A stretch of 64,000 nt of DNA, taken from assembly GCA_025363655.1 (NCBI GenBank), contig JANYDK010000071.1:248001-312000 (forward strand), written 5' to 3'. The position numbers and the translations under genes are program-made. Source of the DNA: Deltaproteobacteria bacterium. GTDB taxonomy: Bacteria; Myxococcota_A; Polyangia; Polyangiales; JADJMO01. Shown here piece after piece: positions 135 through 33,284 of the stretch. The stretch's first letter is position 1, and every line of letters starts with the position of its first letter. Under the pieces are notes generated by a model. It was not told the DNA's origin and ran no database searches. It saw only the letters and a list, made by a program, of their open reading frames with translations.

Positions 135-237
135 CTTTGCAAATTGGATTCGCAAACTCCCTAGAGGTCAGGCGATTGCGAAGACATCCCGCGGGGCGCA
201 TGACTCGCCGGTGAACATCACCGACGTCCGCTCACGT

Positions 238-20283: not shown

Positions 20284-20390
20284 GCTTCGAGACGCTTCTT
20301 TCGTCACGAGACTGACGCTGCCGCACGGCGCTCGCGAACGGCGCGACGTCGTGCGGCGGTCGTCTGCCTACCTGTTTGGGAGATCTTCCG

Positions 20391-21656
20391 TTGAAGAAGT
20401 GGTCGCGGTCGTCATTGCTCGTGTTCGCGCTCGTCTCGTCGTCGTCCGTCGTCCGAGGCGCGCTCGCCGCCGAGCCCGCGGGTAAAGATCCGACGCAGCA
20501 GCTCGTCACCTCGGCCTACGTGCAGGGGCAGTACGAGACGCACGGGGAGTCGGAAGATCAAGTGCGGCAAGGAGGCTCGCCCCTCAACCTCGACCGCTTC
20601 GTCGTCCGTCGCGCGCGGCTCAAGCTCGAGCGCGAGTGGAGCTTCTCGTCGCTGATGCTCGAGATCGACGGCAACACCGTCAATGGTCCGTCGCTGACGC
20701 CGCACCACGCGGAGGCGTCGATTCTCTACCGCGGCAAGAATCCGTGGAGCGCGCCGCCGCTCGTGCGGCTGACGTTCGGGATGTTCGACACGCCCTTCGG
20801 CTTCGAGCTCGTCGAGTCGCCGCGCACTCGCTTCTTCACCGAGCGCAGCTTCGCCTCGCGTTCGCTCTTTCCCTCCGAGCCCGACATCGGCGCGCGCCTC
20901 TCGGGCGGCCTCGGTTGGCTCCGCTATGCCTTTGCCTTCGTCAACGGTCAGCCGAAGGACACCCCCTTCGCGCTGCAAGATCCGAAGTCGTCGAAGGACT
21001 TCGTCGCCCGCGTCGGTGGCTTCGTCACCCCGGCCGATGCGCTCGAGCTCCAGTTCGGCGTCTCCTTCCTCAGCGGCAAGGGCTTCCACAAGGGGAGCGA
21101 CGCCACCAAGGACTCGGTCGTGTGGACCGATCGCAACGAGAACGGGCAGATCGACATCGGCGAGCTACAGGCGGTCAACGGCCTTGCCGCGACGCCTTCG
21201 CAGACCTTCAAACGCTGGGCGCTCGGCGCCGATCTCCGCGTGCGCCTCCAGACCAAGCTCGGCGTGACGCAGCTCTCGGGCGAAATCTCCTTCGCGGCCA
21301 ACCTCGATCGGAGCGCGCTCTTCCTCGCTGATCCGGTCATCTCCGGCATCGACTCTCGCGAGAAGGGCTACTTCGTCGCGATTCAGCAGGAGATCGGCTC
21401 CTTCGCCGCCGCCGGCGTGCGCTTCGACTTCTACGATCCGAACGCCGACAAGTTCGATCAGCAGCTCGGCAAGCTCGTTCCCAGCTCGCAGCGCGTGCAG
21501 ACGATCACCCCGATGATCGCCGTGCTCCCCGATCCGCACGTGCGCTTCGTCGTGCAGTGGGATCACGTACGCGACTATCTCGGTCGCTCGGTGAAGGGCG
21601 TGCCGGTCGACCTCTCGAACGACGTCATCACCCTTCGCCTGCAGGCGGAGCTGTGA
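20391..21656 (+). CDS. OprO/OprP-like phosphate-selective porin, first copy
   Basis: 421 residues if started at TTG 20391, which has GGGAG eight bases upstream and gives a clean signal peptide (Met-Lys-Lys-Trp, hydrophobic core, Ala-Leu-Ala-Ala). TTG 20376 is the alternative. The mature protein is beta-rich with alternating hydrophobic residues and ends in Leu-Gln-Ala-Glu-Leu. Features of the phosphate-selective porin O/P family are visible: Arg-Arg-Ala-Arg-Leu-Lys near residue 60, Phe-Gly-Met-Phe-Asp-Thr-Pro-Phe-Gly and Glu-Arg-Ser-Phe. In Pseudomonas OprP/OprO admit phosphate or polyphosphate through an arginine/lysine ladder. Its place after a PstS-like gene supports phosphate uptake. It overlaps the next lipoprotein gene by one base. 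Confidence 0.78.
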   Translation: MKKWSRSSLLVFALVSSSSVVRGALAAEPAGKDPTQQLVTSAYVQGQYETHGESEDQVRQGGSPLNLDRFVVRRARLKLEREWSFSSLMLEIDGNTVNGPSLTPHHAEASILYRGKNPWSAPPLVRLTFGMFDTPFGFELVESPRTRFFTERSFASRSLFPSEPDIGARLSGGLGWLRYAFAFVNGQPKDTPFALQDPKSSKDFVARVGGFVTPADALELQFGVSFLSGKGFHKGSDATKDSVVWTDRNENGQIDIGELQAVNGLAATPSQTFKRWALGADLRVRLQTKLGVTQLSGEISFAANLDRSALFLADPVISGIDSREKGYFVAIQQEIGSFAAAGVRFDFYDPNADKFDQQLGKLVPSSQRVQTITPMIAVLPDPHVRFVVQWDHVRDYLGRSVKGVPVDLSNDVITLRLQAEL

Positions 21657-24587: not shown

Positions 24588-27260
24588 GTGCGTCGTCTCG
24601 CGAACTACATGTCGACGTTGTGCGTGGGCCTCGCCGCGCTCACTCCCGTACGCTCTTCGCACGCCGATCTCCAAGGTGGCGGTGATCAGCTGCCGCCGGC
24701 CGGTGAGCTGACGAAGGCGCCGAAGCTCGTGAAGTTCGTCGAGGCGCCGTATCCGGAGTCGGAGAAGAAAGCCGGACAGGCAGGGAAGGCCGCGTCGGTC
24801 ACTCTCCAGATCGCAATCAGCGACACCGGCACGGTCATCGACGTCGTCGTGGTCGGTTCGGCAGGTGCGGCGTTCGACAGCGCCGCCGTCGCCGCCGCGC
24901 GCCTCTTCCTCTTCTCGCCAGCCGAAATCGACGGCAAGCCGGCGCCCGTCGTCCTCACGTATCGCTACGATTTCAAGGTCCAGGAGGTGAAGGCAGGCCC
25001 CGTCGTCAACTTCGAGGGGCTGGTCAAAGATCGCTTCAGCAAGAAGCCGATCGAAGGCGTCACCGTCACCGTCGATGCGCTGGCTCCGGTGAAGACCGAC
25101 AAGGACGGTCGCTTCACCTTCACCGATCTCGCGCCCGGCAAACACAACGTCACCCTCGCCGGTCCCACCTTCGTCACCGTCAGCACCGACGAGACGATCG
25201 AGCAGGGGAAGAAGCTCGAGGTGAAATACGCCGTCGAGCCCAAGCAAGAGAAGCTGCCGGGCGAGGAAGAGGCCGACATCGAGATCGTCGTCGTCGCGCC
25301 GAAGATCAAGAAGGAGGTCGTCTCGACCGCGATCAAGGTCGAAGAAGGGCGCAAGGTCGCCGGTACGTCGGGAGACACGCTGAAGGTGGTGCAGAACCTC
25401 CCCGGCGTCGCCCGCGCGTCGTTCGGCTCGGGCGCGCTCGTCGTCTGGGGCGCGGCGCCGAACGACACCCGCGTCTACATCGACGGCGTGCGGATTCCGC
25501 TGCTCTATCACGTGGGCGGGCTTCGCTCGACGATCAACAGCGACATCGTCCGCGGCATCGATCTCGCGCCCGGGGGCTATGGTCCCGAGTACGGCGGCGG
25601 GCTCGGCGGGCTCGTCACCGTCGAGACGCGGGCGCTCCGCAACGACAAGGTCCACGGCTACGTCTCCGCCGACATGATCGACGCCTCGACGATGATCGAG
25701 GCGCCCATCGACGGAAAGACCCGAGTCGCGGCGGCTGCGCGTCGGAGCTACCTGCAGAAGACGCTCGGGCTCTTCACCAAGGAAGACGTCAGCGACTTCG
25801 TCCCCATTCCGAGCTACTTCGACGCCCAGTTCAAGCTCGAGCGCGACCTCGGAACCAACGAGTCGCTGACGTTGCTCGTGATTGGCTCCTCCGACACGCT
25901 GACCCGCACGCTCACCAGCCCCGACCCGGCGCAGGTGAAGAGCGAGGAGACGCTCGCCACCTTCGGTCGCGCGATCCTCACCTATCGGAAGTCGCTCTCC
26001 GACGGCTCGACCATCTTCGTCACGCCCTCGTTCGGTCGCGATCATCAACGCACCATCAGCAAGTTCGGGGGAACGCCGACCGAGCTCGACATCCTCGGCA
26101 CTGCGTTCGGCATCCGCGCCGGTTGGCGATCGAAGCTGACGACGTACCTGACGATGACCGCAGGCCTCGATTTCGAGGCGATGATGAGCGATCTGTCGAG
26201 GCAAGGCGCGGTGACGTTGCCGCCGCGCGAGGGCGACATCCACGTCTTCGGACAACCGCCGGGCGATCAGCTCAACGTCGACGAGTGGTCGACGAACATC
26301 GGGATGCTCGCGCCCTTCGTCAACGCCGACTTCTCGCTCTTCGAAGGAAAGCTGCACGTCGTGCCGGGCGCGCGCCTCGCGGGCTTCGTCACCTCGGGGA
26401 GTCGCGTCACGCCGATCAAAGGTGAGACGCCGAAGATCGGTTTCACGCACGAAGAGACGGTCGTCGAGCCGCGCCTCAACCTCCGCTGGGCGCCGAGCGA
26501 TCGGCTCTCGTTCAAGGCCGCCTTTGGTCGCTATCACCAGGCGCCGCAGGCCGAAGATCTCTCGGCGGTCTTCGGCAATCCGTCGCTCGGCATCGCCTCG
26601 GCGACGCACTGGCTCGCAGGCGTGAATTTCAAGCTGACGCCGAAGCTCTCGATCGAGACGGTCGGCTTCTATTCGAAGTCGGCGAATCTGGTCGCGCGCA
26701 GCCAAGCCTCGACGCCGCTGCTCGCGCAGGCGCTCGTGCAAGAAGGCGAAGGGCGCGCTTTCGGTGGGCAGCTGCTCTTGCGCCAGGAGCTGGCCAAGGG
26801 CTTCTTCGGTTGGATCAGCTACAGCCTCATACGCAGCGAGCGCAAAGATCACGACGGGGCCAACTGGCGGCTCTTCGACTACGACCAGACGCACGTCTTG
26901 ACCGTCCTCGGCAGCTACGATCTCGGCAAGGGCTTCGAGGTCGGCGCGCGCGTCCGCTACGCCAGCGGCTTCCCGCGCACGCCGGTGATCGATGCCTTCT
27001 ACGACGCGCGGCGCGATCTCTACGAGCCGCACTTCGGCGCGCAGAACTCGATTCGCGTGCCGGCGTTCTTCTCCACCGACGTGCGCTTCGCCAAACGCTT
27101 CACCTTCGGCGGAACGAAGCTCGAGGTGTTCCTCGACGTGCAGAACGTCTTCAACAAGAAGAACGCCGAGGACATTGCTTACAACTACAACTACCGAGAG
27201 CGCGCCAACATCACGGGGCTGCCGATTTTGCCTGTGCTGGGCGCGCGGGCGGAGTGGTGA
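24588..27260 (+). CDS. TonB-dependent receptor with N-terminal TonB-C-like domain
   Basis: 890 residues, GTG start with an ATG at 24609 as alternative; a signal peptide covers about 1-28. Domain order: a TonB C-terminal-like domain (about 35-125, with Ala-Pro-Tyr-Pro-Glu, a Val-Thr-Leu-Gln-Ile strand and Phe-Leu-Phe-Ser-Pro-Ala), then a carboxypeptidase-regulatory-like beta domain (about 140-215). A plug (about 230-350, Val-Tyr-Ile-Asp-Gly-Val-Arg-Ile-Pro and Gly-Pro-Glu-Tyr-Gly-Gly-Gly-Leu-Gly-Gly) and a 22-strand barrel to the end follow. The plug and barrel are typical of outer-membrane active transporters. A TonB-C domain on the receptor itself is unusual and may mediate docking or dimerisation. 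The substrate is unstated; phosphate neighbours point to a phosphorus compound. Its last base overlaps the next start. Confidence 0.87.
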   Translation: MRRLANYMSTLCVGLAALTPVRSSHADLQGGGDQLPPAGELTKAPKLVKFVEAPYPESEKKAGQAGKAASVTLQIAISDTGTVIDVVVVGSAGAAFDSAAVAAARLFLFSPAEIDGKPAPVVLTYRYDFKVQEVKAGPVVNFEGLVKDRFSKKPIEGVTVTVDALAPVKTDKDGRFTFTDLAPGKHNVTLAGPTFVTVSTDETIEQGKKLEVKYAVEPKQEKLPGEEEADIEIVVVAPKIKKEVVSTAIKVEEGRKVAGTSGDTLKVVQNLPGVARASFGSGALVVWGAAPNDTRVYIDGVRIPLLYHVGGLRSTINSDIVRGIDLAPGGYGPEYGGGLGGLVTVETRALRNDKVHGYVSADMIDASTMIEAPIDGKTRVAAAARRSYLQKTLGLFTKEDVSDFVPIPSYFDAQFKLERDLGTNESLTLLVIGSSDTLTRTLTSPDPAQVKSEETLATFGRAILTYRKSLSDGSTIFVTPSFGRDHQRTISKFGGTPTELDILGTAFGIRAGWRSKLTTYLTMTAGLDFEAMMSDLSRQGAVTLPPREGDIHVFGQPPGDQLNVDEWSTNIGMLAPFVNADFSLFEGKLHVVPGARLAGFVTSGSRVTPIKGETPKIGFTHEETVVEPRLNLRWAPSDRLSFKAAFGRYHQAPQAEDLSAVFGNPSLGIASATHWLAGVNFKLTPKLSIETVGFYSKSANLVARSQASTPLLAQALVQEGEGRAFGGQLLLRQELAKGFFGWISYSLIRSERKDHDGANWRLFDYDQTHVLTVLGSYDLGKGFEVGARVRYASGFPRTPVIDAFYDARRDLYEPHFGAQNSIRVPAFFSTDVRFAKRFTFGGTKLEVFLDVQNVFNKKNAEDIAYNYNYRERANITGLPILPVLGARAEW

Positions 27261-28387
27261 TGGCAAGAATGGCAAGATTGGGATCGGTCGCCTTGGTTGC
27301 GAGCCTGGCGGGCCTCGGTTGCAAGCCGGAGTTCAAGGGTCGCTCGTCGGAGATTCGGGGCCCCGCAGTACTCGCCGTACGTTCGACGCCGGCGGAGGCG
27401 GATCCGATTCGGGATGTGACGGTGCACTACGAGGCATTGGTGGTGCAGCCGAGTGGGACGATGGAAGGCGCGAGCATCGATTGGGCGTTTTGTACGACGC
27501 CGAAGCCGCTCGCTGAGCTCAATGACGTTGCCTATTTGTGTTTCGACCGCAACGACGCTGCCGTGAATGGGGATCCCGATGCCGGGAGCGGACGCGCGGC
27601 GTACGTGACGCCGATTGGCGTCGGTCCGGACGTCTCTGCCGTCTTGCCGCGCAATGGCTGTCGTCAGTTCGGCTCGGATGTGCCCGAGCCCGTGAACAAG
27701 GACGATCCGGCGGGGCGGCCTGCCGATCCCGATGGCACCGGCGGCTACTACCAACCGGTCACGCTGGTCCTCGGTCCCGATCCGAACAACTGGGCAGTCG
27801 GCGAGACCCGGCTCAGCTGCGGTCTTCCTGGCGCGACCTCGGAGGCCCTCGGAGAGTATCGACAGCGCTATCACGCCAACCAGAACCCCGAGATTTACGA
27901 GGCGCACCTGCTTCGTGGCGTGAATGGCAGCGAAGACGTGACGTTGAACGGAGTTGGCGCGGGCGATCCGGCGGTGGTTCGAGCGGGCGAGACGTTGAAG
28001 CTGCGTGTCGTCTGGCCGACCTGTCCGAGCTCGGCGGTTTGTGGAGATGGCATCTGCAGCGGCGCGGAAGACGCGAAGGCCTGCGAGGCCGACTGCAAAG
28101 ATCCGCACGGCTGCACCGGCGCCGAGACGTATGCGTTCTACGAGTTGAAATCGCGCTCGGTGATCGACCGACGCGAGGCGATGCGCGTCTCGTTCTACGC
28201 CACCGGCGGATCGTTCCTCGACGATCGCACCGGGCGCGGCGAGAGCGAGGGACAGAACTTCGCCGACGACACCTGGACGGCACCGAACGCTCCAGGACCG
28301 GTGACGCTCTGGCTCGTCCTCCGTGACAGCCGGGGCGGGGTCAACTGGGCGACGTACCCTCTGGTCGTCGGGACACCTGGAAAATGA
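27260..28387 (+). CDS. lipoprotein, cell-surface accessory to the TonB receptor
   Basis: 375 residues, ATG overlapping the receptor stop by one base. The signal peptide begins with a repeated Met-Ala-Arg and ends Ala-Gly-Leu-Gly-Cys (lipobox near residue 21). The mature part is beta-rich. A small Cys cluster at about 255-285 (Cys-Gly-Asp-Gly-Ile-Cys, Cys-Glu-Ala-Asp-Cys) resembles calcium- or disulphide-stabilised Cys repeats of myxobacterial surface proteins. No catalytic motif is seen. Being wedged between a TonB-dependent receptor and a Pho-type regulator suggests a substrate-capturing surface lipoprotein, as in SusD-like pairs, though it is not SusD. Confidence 0.7.
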   Translation: MARMARLGSVALVASLAGLGCKPEFKGRSSEIRGPAVLAVRSTPAEADPIRDVTVHYEALVVQPSGTMEGASIDWAFCTTPKPLAELNDVAYLCFDRNDAAVNGDPDAGSGRAAYVTPIGVGPDVSAVLPRNGCRQFGSDVPEPVNKDDPAGRPADPDGTGGYYQPVTLVLGPDPNNWAVGETRLSCGLPGATSEALGEYRQRYHANQNPEIYEAHLLRGVNGSEDVTLNGVGAGDPAVVRAGETLKLRVVWPTCPSSAVCGDGICSGAEDAKACEADCKDPHGCTGAETYAFYELKSRSVIDRREAMRVSFYATGGSFLDDRTGRGESEGQNFADDTWTAPNAPGPVTLWLVLRDSRGGVNWATYPLVVGTPGK

Positions 28388-29157
28388 GCCGATTTTCGCC
28401 GGTCACCGAACTCTCGCGTGGGCGTCACGGGGTCGTCACCGACGGCTTCTACGCTCCCTCGGTGTCTCGATTACTCCTCATCGCGAACGCCGCGACCCGA
28501 GGAACCGAAGAAGCGTCAGCCGTCACGCTCCTTCGTCACTTGAGCGCGGCGGGCCACGAGGTCGTCGCCGCACCGAGCGCCGAGGATGGCCTGCGACTCG
28601 CGCGCGCAGAACGTCCCGACCTGGTGTTGGTCGATGACGAGCGGCTGGGCGTCGAGGCCAACGAGGTCTGCCGTCGCGTCGCCTGGGATCCGGTGACCAA
28701 AGACATTCCGGTGGTCATCATCTCGGAGCACGGCCGCGAGGTCGATCGCATCGTCGGCCTCGAGCTCGGCGCCGAGGACTACGTCGTCAAGCCCTACAGC
28801 ATGCGCGAATTGGTGCTGCGCGTGCGGGCGATCCTTCGTCACCGCGTCTCGCCCGCGCAGGCCGCGCACGAGCGCTTCGGCCTCCTTCGCATCGATCCCG
28901 AAGCCCATCGCGTGTGGGTCGACCAGACGGAAGTGCACCTCACCGTCCTCGAGCTCCGTCTCTTGATGCTGCTCTACGCCTCCCGCGGCCACGTGCTCTT
29001 GCGCGCCAAGCTCCTGCGCGACGTCTGGGGCCCGAACGAACAGAGCCGCGCGCTCGACACCTGCGTGAAGCGCTTGCGCAAGAAGCTCACCCGCGTCGGC
29101 CACTACATCGAAACCGTACGCGGCGTCGGCTACCGCTTTCGCGAGTACGCAGATTGA
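28384..29157 (+). CDS. PhoB-like response regulator with degenerate acidic pocket
   Basis: 257 residues, ATG overlapping the preceding stop (ATGA). A GTG at 28462 would remove the first 26 residues, which are not part of the receiver. The receiver (about 29-150) keeps D84, S114 and K136 (Val-Val-Lys-Pro-Tyr). The metal-binding acidic pair expected at 34-35 is Ala-Asn, so phosphorylation should be weak or absent. The winged helix (about 160-255) has Val-Lys-Arg-Leu-Arg-Lys-Lys-Leu and Thr-Val-Arg-Gly-Val-Gly-Tyr-Arg-Phe, close to the intact PhoB paralogue at 31029. The two also share Val-Asp-Arg-Ile-Val-Gly-Leu-Glu-Leu-Gly. It probably binds the same kind of site without needing a kinase, and it travels with the TonB receptor transcript. 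Confidence 0.82.
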   Translation: MSRFSPVTELSRGRHGVVTDGFYAPSVSRLLLIANAATRGTEEASAVTLLRHLSAAGHEVVAAPSAEDGLRLARAERPDLVLVDDERLGVEANEVCRRVAWDPVTKDIPVVIISEHGREVDRIVGLELGAEDYVVKPYSMRELVLRVRAILRHRVSPAQAAHERFGLLRIDPEAHRVWVDQTEVHLTVLELRLLMLLYASRGHVLLRAKLLRDVWGPNEQSRALDTCVKRLRKKLTRVGHYIETVRGVGYRFREYAD

Positions 29158-29220: not shown

Positions 29221-29254
29221 TCGTCATCCCGTCGTCACACGGGATGGGCAATCT
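29221..29254 (+). promoter_or_regulatory. Pho box before second OprO/P-like porin
   Basis: TCGTCAT-CCCG-TCGTCAC (29221-29238) is an 11-bp direct repeat matching the Pho-box layout. CAATCT ten bases later (29249-29254) would be a weak -10. It lies about 40 bases before the porin start, within the 29158-29277 gap. Confidence 0.62.
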
Positions 29255-29277: not shown

Positions 29278-30948
29278 ATGCGCCGATTCACCATCATCAC
29301 GTCCCTCAGCGCCGTTGCCGTCGTCACCTCATTCGTAGGCTTTTCGGGCCTAGCATCCGCGGACGAGCCGGCGACGCCGCCGCCCGCCCCCGCACCCGAT
29401 ACCTCGGCATCAGCTGCACCTCCCCCCGCACCGGTCGTCACCGAGGTGAACGCCGCGGCAGCCGCCGAAGCTCCCGCCGACGATGCCGCCGCGCCCCTCG
29501 CTGGATGGCACGGCGGTCTCTTCTTCCTCCGCAGCCAAGACGATCAGTTCCGCCTTTACATCCAAGGCCGCGCGCAGATCGACAGCTACAACTACTTCGG
29601 CGCCGGCATCGCCGATCAGCCGAACGGCACCAATCTCAAATCGACGATCTTCCTCCGCCGCGCCCGCGCCGAGATCAGCGGCGAGTTCCTCGGGGACTTC
29701 CAGTGGATGCTCGCGGGCGACTGGGGCGCGACCGGCCTCGACAACGCCAAGGGCACGAACGAGACGTCCGCCGCCGGCCCCGGCGTCGCACCGACGGCGA
29801 CGACCGGTCGTTACAACAGCGCGCAGACGCCGACGTTGCGCGCGACCGCGACCGACGTCTTCATCAACTGGAAGGCCAACCCGCTCTTCCAGATTCAGCT
29901 CGGCCAGTACGACGCGCCGTTCACGATGGAGAACCGGACGAGCGACAAATACATCCCGTTCATGGAGCGATCGCTGGCGGTGCGCGCGGTCGGCATTCCG
30001 ACCAACAAAGAGATCGGCGCCATGTTCTGGGGCGAGGCCAAGGACAAGCTCTTCTTCTATTCGGTCGGCTTCTTCAACGGCGACGGGCAAGGCCGACTCT
30101 CTCCCGACAACCGCATGGACACCATCGGTCGCGTCTTCGTCCACCCGCTGAACACGATGAAAGGTCCCCTCAAGGATCTGCAAATCGGCGGCAGCTTCCG
30201 CTACGGCGTGCGTGACAGCAACTACGTCAACTACGACTACGCGCCGCTGTCGACCCAAGGTGGCTTCACCTTCTTCAACACCAACTACGGCGGCAGCAAG
30301 GGCAACACGCACATTCTCCCTGCCGGCAAGCAGACGGGATTCGCCGGCGAGCTCCGCGTGCCCTTCGTCGATCAGGTCGATCTGACCAGCGAGTTCGTCT
30401 ACATCAAGAACGAGACGCGCGAGGCCGTCGAGGGTTTCCAAGCGGCAAATACCGAACGTTTCGGCTCCATCAAGGGCTACGCCTACTACGTCCAACTCGG
30501 CTTCTGGCCCATGGGCGGTCGCGACATCAACGGCATGCCTGGCTACGAAAACCCGACCCACGTCGATCTGAAGAAGCCCGACACCAAGCCGAAGACGGCC
30601 CTGCAACTGCTGCTCAAGTGGGAGCAGCTGAACCTCGAGTACGTCAGCAACTCGCGCAGCGGCGACGCCGACGCCAAGGGCGTGGACGGGAAAATCAAGG
30701 TCAACGCGCTCTCGGTGGGCGCCAACCTGTGGATGACCAAGCACCTGCGTTTCAGCGCCAACTACATCTACAACATGTTCCCCGACTCGGCCCCGACCTC
30801 GGCGAGCGCCGCCGACGGCCCCAAGCAGACGAGCGACCAGCGCGCGATCGCGCCGGCGCAGAACCTAAAGGCAGGAATCAACGACTCGGCCCGCGACACC
30901 GGACACGGCTTCCACGAGCTGCTCTTCCGCGCTGCGGTCGCGTTCTGA
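29278..30948 (+). CDS. OprO/OprP-like phosphate-selective porin, second copy
   Basis: 556 residues from the ATG at 29278, which has a perfect AGGAGG seven bases upstream; an upstream in-frame GTG-type extension is not needed. A signal peptide is followed by a Pro/Ala/Glu linker (about 25-75) and then a beta-barrel. The barrel shows Phe-Arg-Leu-Tyr-Ile-Gln-Gly-Arg-Ala-Gln-Ile-Asp, Leu-Arg-Arg-Ala-Arg-Ala-Glu-Ile-Ser-Gly and Leu-Gly-Gln-Tyr-Asp-Ala-Pro-Phe-Thr-Met-Glu, and ends with Ala-Val-Ala-Phe. These are hallmarks of the phosphate-selective porin O and P family. A Pho box precedes it, so it is expected to be induced by phosphate starvation. Confidence 0.85.
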   Translation: MRRFTIITSLSAVAVVTSFVGFSGLASADEPATPPPAPAPDTSASAAPPPAPVVTEVNAAAAAEAPADDAAAPLAGWHGGLFFLRSQDDQFRLYIQGRAQIDSYNYFGAGIADQPNGTNLKSTIFLRRARAEISGEFLGDFQWMLAGDWGATGLDNAKGTNETSAAGPGVAPTATTGRYNSAQTPTLRATATDVFINWKANPLFQIQLGQYDAPFTMENRTSDKYIPFMERSLAVRAVGIPTNKEIGAMFWGEAKDKLFFYSVGFFNGDGQGRLSPDNRMDTIGRVFVHPLNTMKGPLKDLQIGGSFRYGVRDSNYVNYDYAPLSTQGGFTFFNTNYGGSKGNTHILPAGKQTGFAGELRVPFVDQVDLTSEFVYIKNETREAVEGFQAANTERFGSIKGYAYYVQLGFWPMGGRDINGMPGYENPTHVDLKKPDTKPKTALQLLLKWEQLNLEYVSNSRSGDADAKGVDGKIKVNALSVGANLWMTKHLRFSANYIYNMFPDSAPTSASAADGPKQTSDQRAIAPAQNLKAGINDSARDTGHGFHELLFRAAVAF

Positions 30949-30987: not shown

Positions 30988-31021
30988 ACGTCATCTGGTT
31001 GTCACAGGGCGTGGCTACAGT
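30988..31021 (+). promoter_or_regulatory. Pho box and -10 of the phoB promoter
   Basis: ACGTCAT-CTGG-TTGTCAC (30988-31005) is a close Pho box. TACAGT (31016-31021) lies exactly ten bases downstream, the E. coli PhoB promoter spacing. A transcript start seven bases after the -10 would fall at or next to the ATG at 31029, suggesting a leaderless or near-leaderless message and autoregulation. Confidence 0.7.
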
Positions 31022-31028
31022 CCTGGCC

Positions 31029-31739
31029 ATGACCGGTCGATTGTTGTTGGTCGAAGACGAGCGTGACGTCGCCACCATTCTCGCGTTCAACCTGCGCGCG
31101 GAAGGGTTCGACGTCACTGCCGTCGAGACGGCGAGCGATGCGTTTCGTCAGGTCGCGGCGCAGAAGTTCGACCTCGTGATCCTCGACTTGATGCTCCCCG
31201 ACGCGAGTGGGCTCGACGTTTGTCGGCGGCTTCGCTCCGACGTGCAGACGCGGGAGATGCCGATTCTCATCGCCTCGGCGCGCGGGGAAGAGGTCGATCG
31301 CATCGTCGGGCTCGAGCTCGGCGCCGAAGATTACGTGGTCAAGCCGTACAGCGTGCGCGAGGTCGTCCTTCGCGCACGCAAGTTGATGAGTCGTCGCGAG
31401 ACGGGGCCGCGGGCGGCGAGTGGGGACAGCGTTTCGTTCGGCGTCCTCACCATCGATCGCGCGGCGCACCGGGTCTTCGTCGAAGGCAAAGAGGTCAGCC
31501 TCACCGCCCTCGAGCTGCGGCTCCTCGACATGCTCCTCGAGCGAAAAAACCGCACCCAGTCGCGCGAGACGCTCTTGATGGACGTCTGGCAGCTGAACGC
31601 GGCGATCGAGACTCGGACCGTCGATACGCACGTGAAGCGGCTGCGCGAGAAATTGGGCGTCGCGGCCAGCTACATCCGCACCGTGCGCGGCATCGGCTAT
31701 CGCTTCGCCAGCAGCCCCGACGAGCCGATGGGCGACTGA
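31029..31739 (+). CDS. phoB: phosphate regulon response regulator PhoB/PhoP
   Basis: 236 residues. The ATG at 31029 gives the receiver its normal start; a TTG at 30999 lies inside the Pho box and is rejected. Receiver residues are all present: E9-D10, D53 (Ile-Leu-Asp-Leu-Met-Leu-Pro), S83 and K105. The winged helix ends Thr-Val-Arg-Gly-Ile-Gly-Tyr-Arg-Phe and has the Val-Lys-Arg-Leu-Arg-Glu-Lys recognition helix typical of PhoB. It is followed by PhoR, PstB, PhoU and the Pst genes, so identification as the phosphate-starvation activator is firm. When PhoR phosphorylates D53 it should bind the Pho boxes at 29221, 30988 and 33232. Confidence 0.92.
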   Translation: MTGRLLLVEDERDVATILAFNLRAEGFDVTAVETASDAFRQVAAQKFDLVILDLMLPDASGLDVCRRLRSDVQTREMPILIASARGEEVDRIVGLELGAEDYVVKPYSVREVVLRARKLMSRRETGPRAASGDSVSFGVLTIDRAAHRVFVEGKEVSLTALELRLLDMLLERKNRTQSRETLLMDVWQLNAAIETRTVDTHVKRLREKLGVAASYIRTVRGIGYRFASSPDEPMGD

Positions 31740-31808: not shown

Positions 31809-33284
31809 ATGGGGGAGATCGGCTCCACGCGCGTCCGCGTCGCCATCGGTGCCGCGATTGCCCTCGCGGTCCTCGCCACCGGCTTTGCGTTTCGGGTCCA
31901 TCGCTCGCTCGAGCCGCTCATCCGCAGCGGTGACGCGGCGGCGGCGACGGCGGAGCTGCGCGAGCTCCTCGTCTATTTGGTCGTCGGCGGTTTCGCCGCG
32001 GCGTTCGCCCTCGGGCTGACGGTCTGGATCATCGCCACCTCGCCGCTCGCACCGCTGACGCGAGCCGTGCGCTCGATGCGGAGCGATCTCGGGACCCGCA
32101 CGGGCATGCGCGGCGTCGACGAGGTGGGGGCGCTCGGCGAAGGCATCGACGAGCTCGTCGCTCATCTCAGCGCCGAGAAGACCTCGCTCGAAGACGACCG
32201 CAATCGCCTCGCCGCGATCCTCGAGTCGATGGCCGAAGGGGTCCTCGTCACCGGCAGGCTCGGGAGCGACGAGGGCGTCATCGTCCTCGCCAACGCCACC
32301 TTGCGCGAGATGCTCCTCCTCGATCGCCGCATCATCGGTCGGCCGCCGCTGGAAGCGATTCGCGTCGCCGGCCTCGACGACATCCTCGAGCGCGGTCAGG
32401 CCTCGGGCGAAGGAGCCGCCGGAGAGCTGGAAATCGTGGGCATTCGTCCACGTCGCTTGCTCGTCCGGGCGGCGCCGCTGCGGGCCACACATCGCGGCGC
32501 GAGTCGAGGCCTCGTGGCCGTCTTCAACGACGTCACCGAACTGCGCCGGCTCGAGAGTCACCGCCGTGACTTCGTCGCCAACGTCTCGCACGAGCTGCGC
32601 ACGCCGATGACGGCGATTCGCGCGGCCACCGAGACGCTCCAAGCCGGCGCCGTCGCCGATCCGAAGACGGCCACCGAGTTCCTCGCGATCATCGGCCGTC
32701 ACACCGTCCGCCTCCAGCGGCTCGTCGACGATCTGCTCGAGCTCTCGAAGATCGAAGCGCGTCAGTGGAAGCTCGAGCTGCAGCCAGTCGAGCTCCGTGA
32801 CGCGGTCAGCGCAGCGATGGAGACGGTCAGCGCCGCCGCCGCCGAGCGAGGCACGACCTTGCAGAACCGCGTCTCCTCCGGCCGCCTCGTCACCGCCGAT
32901 CGCCGCGCGCTCGACCAGGTCCTCGTCAACTTGATGGACAACGCGGTGAAGTACGCCGGGCAGAAGCGTGTCGTCGCGGTCAGCGTGAGCAGCGGAGAGG
33001 CCGAAAAAACCGTGCGTTTCAACGTCTCGGACGACGGGCCGGGGATCGACGTCCGTCATCTCCCGCGCCTCTTCGAGCGCTTCTATCGGGTCGACGCCGG
33101 TCGCAGTCGCGCGGTCGGCGGCACTGGCCTCGGTCTCTCGATCGTCAAGCACCTGGTCGAGGCGATGAACGGCAGCATCCAGGTCGAGTCGGCCCTCGGT
33201 ACGGGCACTACGTTCAGTGTCGAGCTCCCCGAGGTCACGCAGTTGTCACCTTCACGTCAGGTCGAAGCCACCGACGCCGACTAG
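31809..33284 (+). CDS. phoR: phosphate regulon sensor kinase PhoR
   Basis: 491 residues. Two membrane helices (about 9-28 and 54-77) enclose a short loop of about 25 residues, as in PhoR proteins that sense through Pst/PhoU rather than by binding phosphate outside the cell. HAMP-like and PAS domains follow (about 80-240). The H-box has H261 in [10 protein letters not shown]. The ATPase shows Asn-Leu-Met-Asp-Asn-Ala-Val-Lys-Tyr, Asp-Asp-Gly-Pro-Gly-Ile and Gly-Thr-Gly-Leu-Gly-Leu-Ser. It lies 69 bases after phoB. Three Pho half-sites are embedded in its last 20 codons, serving pstB. Confidence 0.92.
33232..33260 (+). promoter_or_regulatory. triple Pho half-site inside phoR, upstream of pstB
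   Basis: AGGTCAC (33232-33238), TTGTCAC (33243-33249) and ACGTCAG (33254-33260) are spaced exactly 11 bases apart, within the final phoR codons. This gives pstB-phoU-pstSCA a Pho-controlled internal promoter besides read-through from phoBR. A convincing -10 cannot be fixed. Confidence 0.65.

Follow-up and report, generated by a model that had tools for sequence, protein, structure and literature searches.

A PhoB paralogue with a degenerate phosphorylation pocket and a putative Pho-type promoter in one family of Myxococcota

Beside canonical phoB, the window (the whole 64,000-nucleotide stretch of DNA analysed here) carries a gene whose product is, as judged from sequence comparison, a fast-evolving PhoB paralogue from one family of Myxococcota. 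With a probability of roughly 0.5, this protein acts as a pseudo-receiver regulator of the OmpR/PhoB type which is induced by phosphorylated PhoB (PhoB~P), dimerises without phosphorylation and tunes, more probably by damping, promoters bearing Pho boxes. The features discussed are collected in Table 1; residue numbers are those of the 231-amino-acid protein and lie 26 below those of an earlier sequence-only reading (D84, S114 and K136 there are D58, S88 and K110 here).

Table 1. Features of the paralogue, its surroundings and its apparent orthologues; positions refer to the window unless a locus is named
Feature	Position	Strand	Remarks
Pseudo-receiver PhoB paralogue	28462..29157	+	GTG start, 231 aa; PF00072 + PF00486
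Paralogue domains	residues ~1-128 and ~137-228		degenerate receiver; OmpR/PhoB winged helix
N-terminal extension of the earlier open reading frame	28384..28461	+	probably untranslated promoter DNA; carries Pho box and -10-like hexamer
Pho-box-like direct repeat GTCAC-N6-GTCAC of the paralogue	28424..28439	+	same place in orthologues
-10-like hexamer TACGCT	28450..28455	+	10 nt past repeat, 6 nt ahead of GTG; leaderless-like
Ala8-Asn9 codons replacing the acidic pair	28483..28488	+	141/141 other homologues acidic at both positions
alpha4-beta5-alpha5 dimer face	28738..28845	+	residues 93-128; retained
Sigma-contact (transactivation) loop and start of recognition helix	29020..29079	+	loop two residues shorter, without Val190 equivalent
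Phosphate-selective porin O/P	29278..30948	+	PF07396; Pho box 29223-29238
Pho box of phoB	30990..31005	+	followed by TACAGT and ATG
Canonical PhoB	31029..31739	+	acidic pair intact; presumed partner or competitor; best NCBIfam model PhoB, below cutoff
PhoR/PnpS-type histidine kinase	31809..33284	+	
Apparent orthologue in G002	L038:4295-4966		
Apparent orthologue in G003	L039:11224-11904	-	contig JACPFM010000044.1, groundwater MAG; also L081

The product has the domain layout of the OmpR/PhoB family, a receiver (PF00072, E 1.9e-12, above the family cutoff) joined to a Trans_reg_C winged helix (PF00486, E 1.5e-19). TIGR02154 (PhoB) was the top NCBIfam model for this protein and for its two apparent orthologues (165-168 bits); the equivalog cutoff of 296.2 was reached neither by the window paralogue (165.1 bits) nor by the canonical PhoB at 31029 (229.1 bits). 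The paralogue shares the two-domain layout and the Pho-box setting of PhoB but lacks the intact phosphorylation pocket expected of a PhoB equivalog. The sequence-only reading had noted that the winged helix is close to that of the neighbouring PhoB and that the two receivers share a long identical segment, and both points were borne out: identity in the winged helix was 52%, and a receiver stretch of 21 residues, EVDRIVGLELGAEDYVVKPYS, is the same in both proteins. This stretch is nearly unchanged in the other PhoB proteins of the family and is thus not special to the pair. Gene conversion was considered as its source and rejected, as codon identity was 0.89-0.95 to PhoB of other genomes vs 0.76 to that of the window itself.

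Of the four further family genomes examined, two (G002 and G003) contain an apparent orthologue. In the tree the three proteins formed one group (92/93 support), on long branches and apart from the PhoB proteins of the family; as the branches are long and a joint clade with family PhoB was not rejected (p-AU 0.29), the orthology is argued also from the promoter, start and derived residues that they have in common. The same topology, together with that p-AU value, gave no demonstration of a recent local duplication of phoB. Pairwise distances were approximately 1.0-2.1 changes per site (42-58% identity), and all statements on conservation refer to these three sequences on long branches. The gene was not found in the two other family genomes searched, one of which is only 87% complete.

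The receiver was aligned with those of 141 distinct other homologues from 152 loci. The first acidic position (DD1) was Glu in 113 and Asp in 28 of these homologues, while the second (DD2) was Asp in all 141; the pair was absent solely from the window paralogue and its two apparent orthologues. An open reading frame does span 28384-29157 and its residues are as originally described, Ala-Asn occupying the acidic-pair positions where the first strand ends, while Asp58, Ser88 and Lys110 are retained. In the two orthologues the pair is Leu-Pro and the active-site Lys is replaced by Arg, with Asp and Ser retained. All three further carry Ala at D+8 (Gly in 141/141 others), and their D+1 and D+2 residues are atypical (A,S and A,K in the two orthologues). 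The domain is a pseudo-receiver in the sequence sense of the term, being recognised by PF00072 with at least one of the five catalytic residues missing. Such a pocket is most likely unable to bind the metal ion required for Asp phosphorylation, which is why the activity of the protein would be governed by the amount made and not by phosphate transfer.

In the AlphaFold2 model of the paralogue both the receiver and the winged helix were predicted with confidence (mean pLDDT 91.7, against 93.1 for the neighbouring PhoB as control), and Foldseek matched the model to RpaA, KdpE and PrrA. The modelled receiver superposed on the BeF3-activated PhoB receiver 1ZES at 1.3 A, a value which speaks to the fold and not to the activation state. 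The first strand ended and the first helix began at residues 7 and 17 in the paralogue, compared to 8 and 12 in PhoB, so that a longer loop of low confidence stands in place of the acidic pair.

The start of the gene is almost certainly GTG 28462, not ATG 28384, since protein conservation among the three orthologues starts at this GTG, while the first 26 codons of the longer frame have no protein conservation in the orthologues and contain the Pho-box repeat. The ATGA overlap at 28384 from which translational coupling to the upstream lipoprotein gene had been proposed does exist, but the coupling is left unsupported by the Pho box within those 26 codons and by orthologues which are alike only from the GTG onwards; nor is the lipoprotein gene a neighbour of the paralogue in the other two genomes. 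In each of the three paralogue genes the repeat GTCAC-N6-GTCAC (one mismatch in G003) is followed after 10 nt by a TA-type -10 hexamer and, after a further 6-8 nt, by GTG. The phoB genes of five family genomes have the same order of repeat, -10 and start with the same 10-nt gap, although one of their repeats is weaker (8/10). Given this correspondence, the paralogue very probably has a Pho-type promoter of its own, with the repeat and the phoB-like geometry of a Pho-regulon promoter, and its mRNA is very probably leaderless or nearly leaderless. PhoB~P would most likely induce such a promoter in phosphate starvation.

Pho-box-like repeats were enriched in the window (5 observed vs 0.41 expected), and the strict form GTCAY-N6-GTCAY occurred 41 times in 9.03 Mb of the genome compared to 4 times for the reversed control, four of these repeats lying within 4.8 kb at this locus. 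The phoB genes of the family (31029-31739 in the window and loci L039-L043) also appear to have little or no leader, their -10 hexamer lying 7-11 nt ahead of the start. A perfect repeat at 33234-33249, inside the 3' end of phoR and just upstream of pstB, is likely an internal promoter for the pst genes.

The neighbours differ among the three paralogue loci, yet all are phosphate genes: phoB, phoR, the pst genes and the porin in the window, a purple acid phosphatase-like protein and a porin O/P gene in G002, and phoB at a distance of 4 kb with PhoX further along in G003. The phosphate cluster of the window contains two genes of the porin O/P type, at 20376-21656 (a weak match, E 1e-4) and 29278-30948. 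It was also observed that the TonB-dependent receptor at 24588-27260, which lies downstream of exbB/exbD/tonB-like genes, has a TonB C-terminal match (PF03544, residues 54-130) at its N terminus, preceding the carboxypeptidase-like and plug domains.

The dimer face has been retained to a far greater extent than the remainder of the receiver: 25 of its 36 positions (69%) are invariant among the three orthologues vs 21 of 84 elsewhere (25%; Fisher p ~1e-5). A contrast this strong was seen in only 0.37% of 19,067 canonical triplets matched for overall conservation, a figure which serves as a guide, the triplets being non-independent samples. The equivalents of R91, L95, D100, D101, E111, R115 and K117, the alpha4-beta5-alpha5 dimer residues of E. 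coli PhoB, are either unchanged or conservatively substituted in each of the three paralogues. Likeness to PhoB, too, is greatest in this face, with 72-78% identity to PhoB of the same genome compared to 36-41% elsewhere in the receiver. Dimerisation without phosphorylation, either with itself or with PhoB, is thus most likely for this protein.

In E. coli PhoB, R201, T194, V197 and R219 contact bases (PMC3973317, PMC1885438), and activation via sigma70 depends on W184, G185, V190 and D192 in the transactivation loop (PMC3973317). The equivalents of R201, R203 and R219 are retained in all three paralogues, while that of T194 is Ala/Ser/Ser and that of H198 is Cys/Met/Met; given the latter changes, DNA specificity may differ from that of PhoB. 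At the V190 position, Ile or Val in most homologues, the three paralogues have a gap, Asp and Glu, respectively; W184 is kept in all of them, and the G002 copy retains both acidic-patch residues of the loop.

In the mechanism we favour, phosphate starvation would lead PhoB~P to switch on the paralogue through its own Pho box; the resulting dimers, of the paralogue with itself or with PhoB, would occupy Pho-type repeats and temper PhoB-driven transcription as a delayed brake. The altered sigma70-contact loop favours a brake over an activator. This loop is the sole ground for damping, which is accordingly the weakest step, as the acidic patch is kept in G002 and the specificity residues are changed. 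Tentatively, and with the odds somewhat against so specific a form, the arrangement may be a lineage-specific negative feedback in which a PhoB~P-induced, phosphorylation-blind paralogue forms heterodimers with PhoB, or occupies Pho boxes while making no contact with sigma70, and so limits and times the starvation response by its amount alone. The competition for Pho boxes put forward in the sequence-only reading is plausible in view of the retained arginines, the retained dimer face and the altered loop, but the changed Thr194 and His198 equivalents speak against it and other readings fit equally.

One such reading, unlikely though a serious contender, is a constitutive activator of its own sub-regulon: dimers formed without phosphorylation would activate genes whose boxes have diverged, adding to the Pho response a feed-forward arm like that proposed for CmrT. 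The Thr194 and His198 changes suggest altered specificity of this kind, and both the W184 kept in all three proteins and the acidic patch of the G002 copy would suit an activator, as would the CmrT precedent; the loss of the V190 equivalent from all three proteins and the shortened loop of the window copy would not. It is rather improbable that the paralogue has no DNA target and acts only by binding PhoB, as an obligate partner in heterodimers or as a titrator, altering PhoB phosphorylation or occupancy through the shared alpha4-beta5-alpha5 face. BldM-WhiI and CmrR-CmrT are precedents for this, and the likeness to PhoB is indeed highest in that face, but a pure titrator would have no need of the DNA-contacting arginines that have been kept.

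A protein still weakly phosphorylated, with D58, S88 and K110 sufficing or with D59, E60, E16 and E17 binding the metal, appears very unlikely. Asp and Ser are kept in all three proteins, the beta1-alpha1 loop (residues 11-20) is of low confidence in the model (mean pLDDT 67) with acids at its end, and, according to a review, phosphorylation may survive substitutions at DD, T or K (PMC12632262); against this, none of these four acids, the nearest by sequence in the window copy, is shared by the orthologues, which have Arg for Lys. That another acidic pair fills the pocket has thereby become unlikely, and the phosphorylation independence first proposed for the protein is well supported by deduction from the pair lost in three proteins, the Lys to Arg change in two and the further altered pocket residues. 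A decaying pseudogene is scarcely credible: the fast evolution and the absence from two family genomes as searched would agree with decay, but the frame is open in three genomes at the identities given above, and the dimer face, the residues contacting DNA and the promoter have all been kept.

By analogy, the closest precedent for the paralogue is CmrT of the CmrRST system of Clostridioides difficile, likewise an OmpR-family pseudo-receiver beside an intact response regulator and kinase (PMC12548384, PMC12632262). CmrT is expressed under the control of CmrR, its intact partner, and both homo- and heterodimers of CmrT have been reported (PMC12548384). The two differ in that CmrT carries Glu at the Asp position and DGD instead of DD, with Lys kept, whereas the paralogue keeps Asp, lacks the acidic pair and has Arg for Lys in two of three cases; CmrT is also cotranscribed in one operon, whereas the paralogue has its own putative Pho-type promoter and its pathway would be phosphate starvation. 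ChxR of Chlamydia trachomatis, which recognises direct repeats (PMC3960148), and HP1043 of Helicobacter pylori are atypical OmpR/PhoB regulators which dimerise without phosphorylation, as proposed here, but both stand alone, whereas the paralogue is under the presumed control of a neighbouring canonical partner. Against the background of these systems, the present case sets a pseudo-receiver beside its canonical paralogue, the two genes sharing one promoter type, within a pathway understood in great depth; the pocket of the pseudo-receiver has decayed while its dimer face has not. BldM and WhiI have a DNA-binding domain of a different type from that of the paralogue. These Streptomyces proteins resemble it in their atypical receivers, homo- and heterodimer logic and use of expression as input, and have no link to phosphate (PMC4125116).

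Pseudo-receivers are common, making up approximately 6% of bacterial receivers in one analysis (PMC12632262), yet their mode of switching is poorly understood. No account of a PhoB pseudo-receiver within the Pho regulon was found in a literature search of incomplete coverage. With the paralogue lying beside PhoB, the tools developed for E. coli PhoB, together with Pho boxes, would allow a direct test between control by expression, by heterodimers and by competition.

No further degenerate copy was found among the best matches in 183 genomes of the order, 377 genomes sampled across the phylum and 80 GTDB-contig loci, a search which could miss more diverged copies. A plasmid search gave no match of at least 60% identity and just ordinary relatives among the matches listed. 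Many genomes of another family of the order (f12; L005:1504-2915, L002:1492-3407 and others) carry a tandem pair of phoB genes, with both pockets intact in the cases read, and the paralogue may stem from an old tandem pair of this kind.
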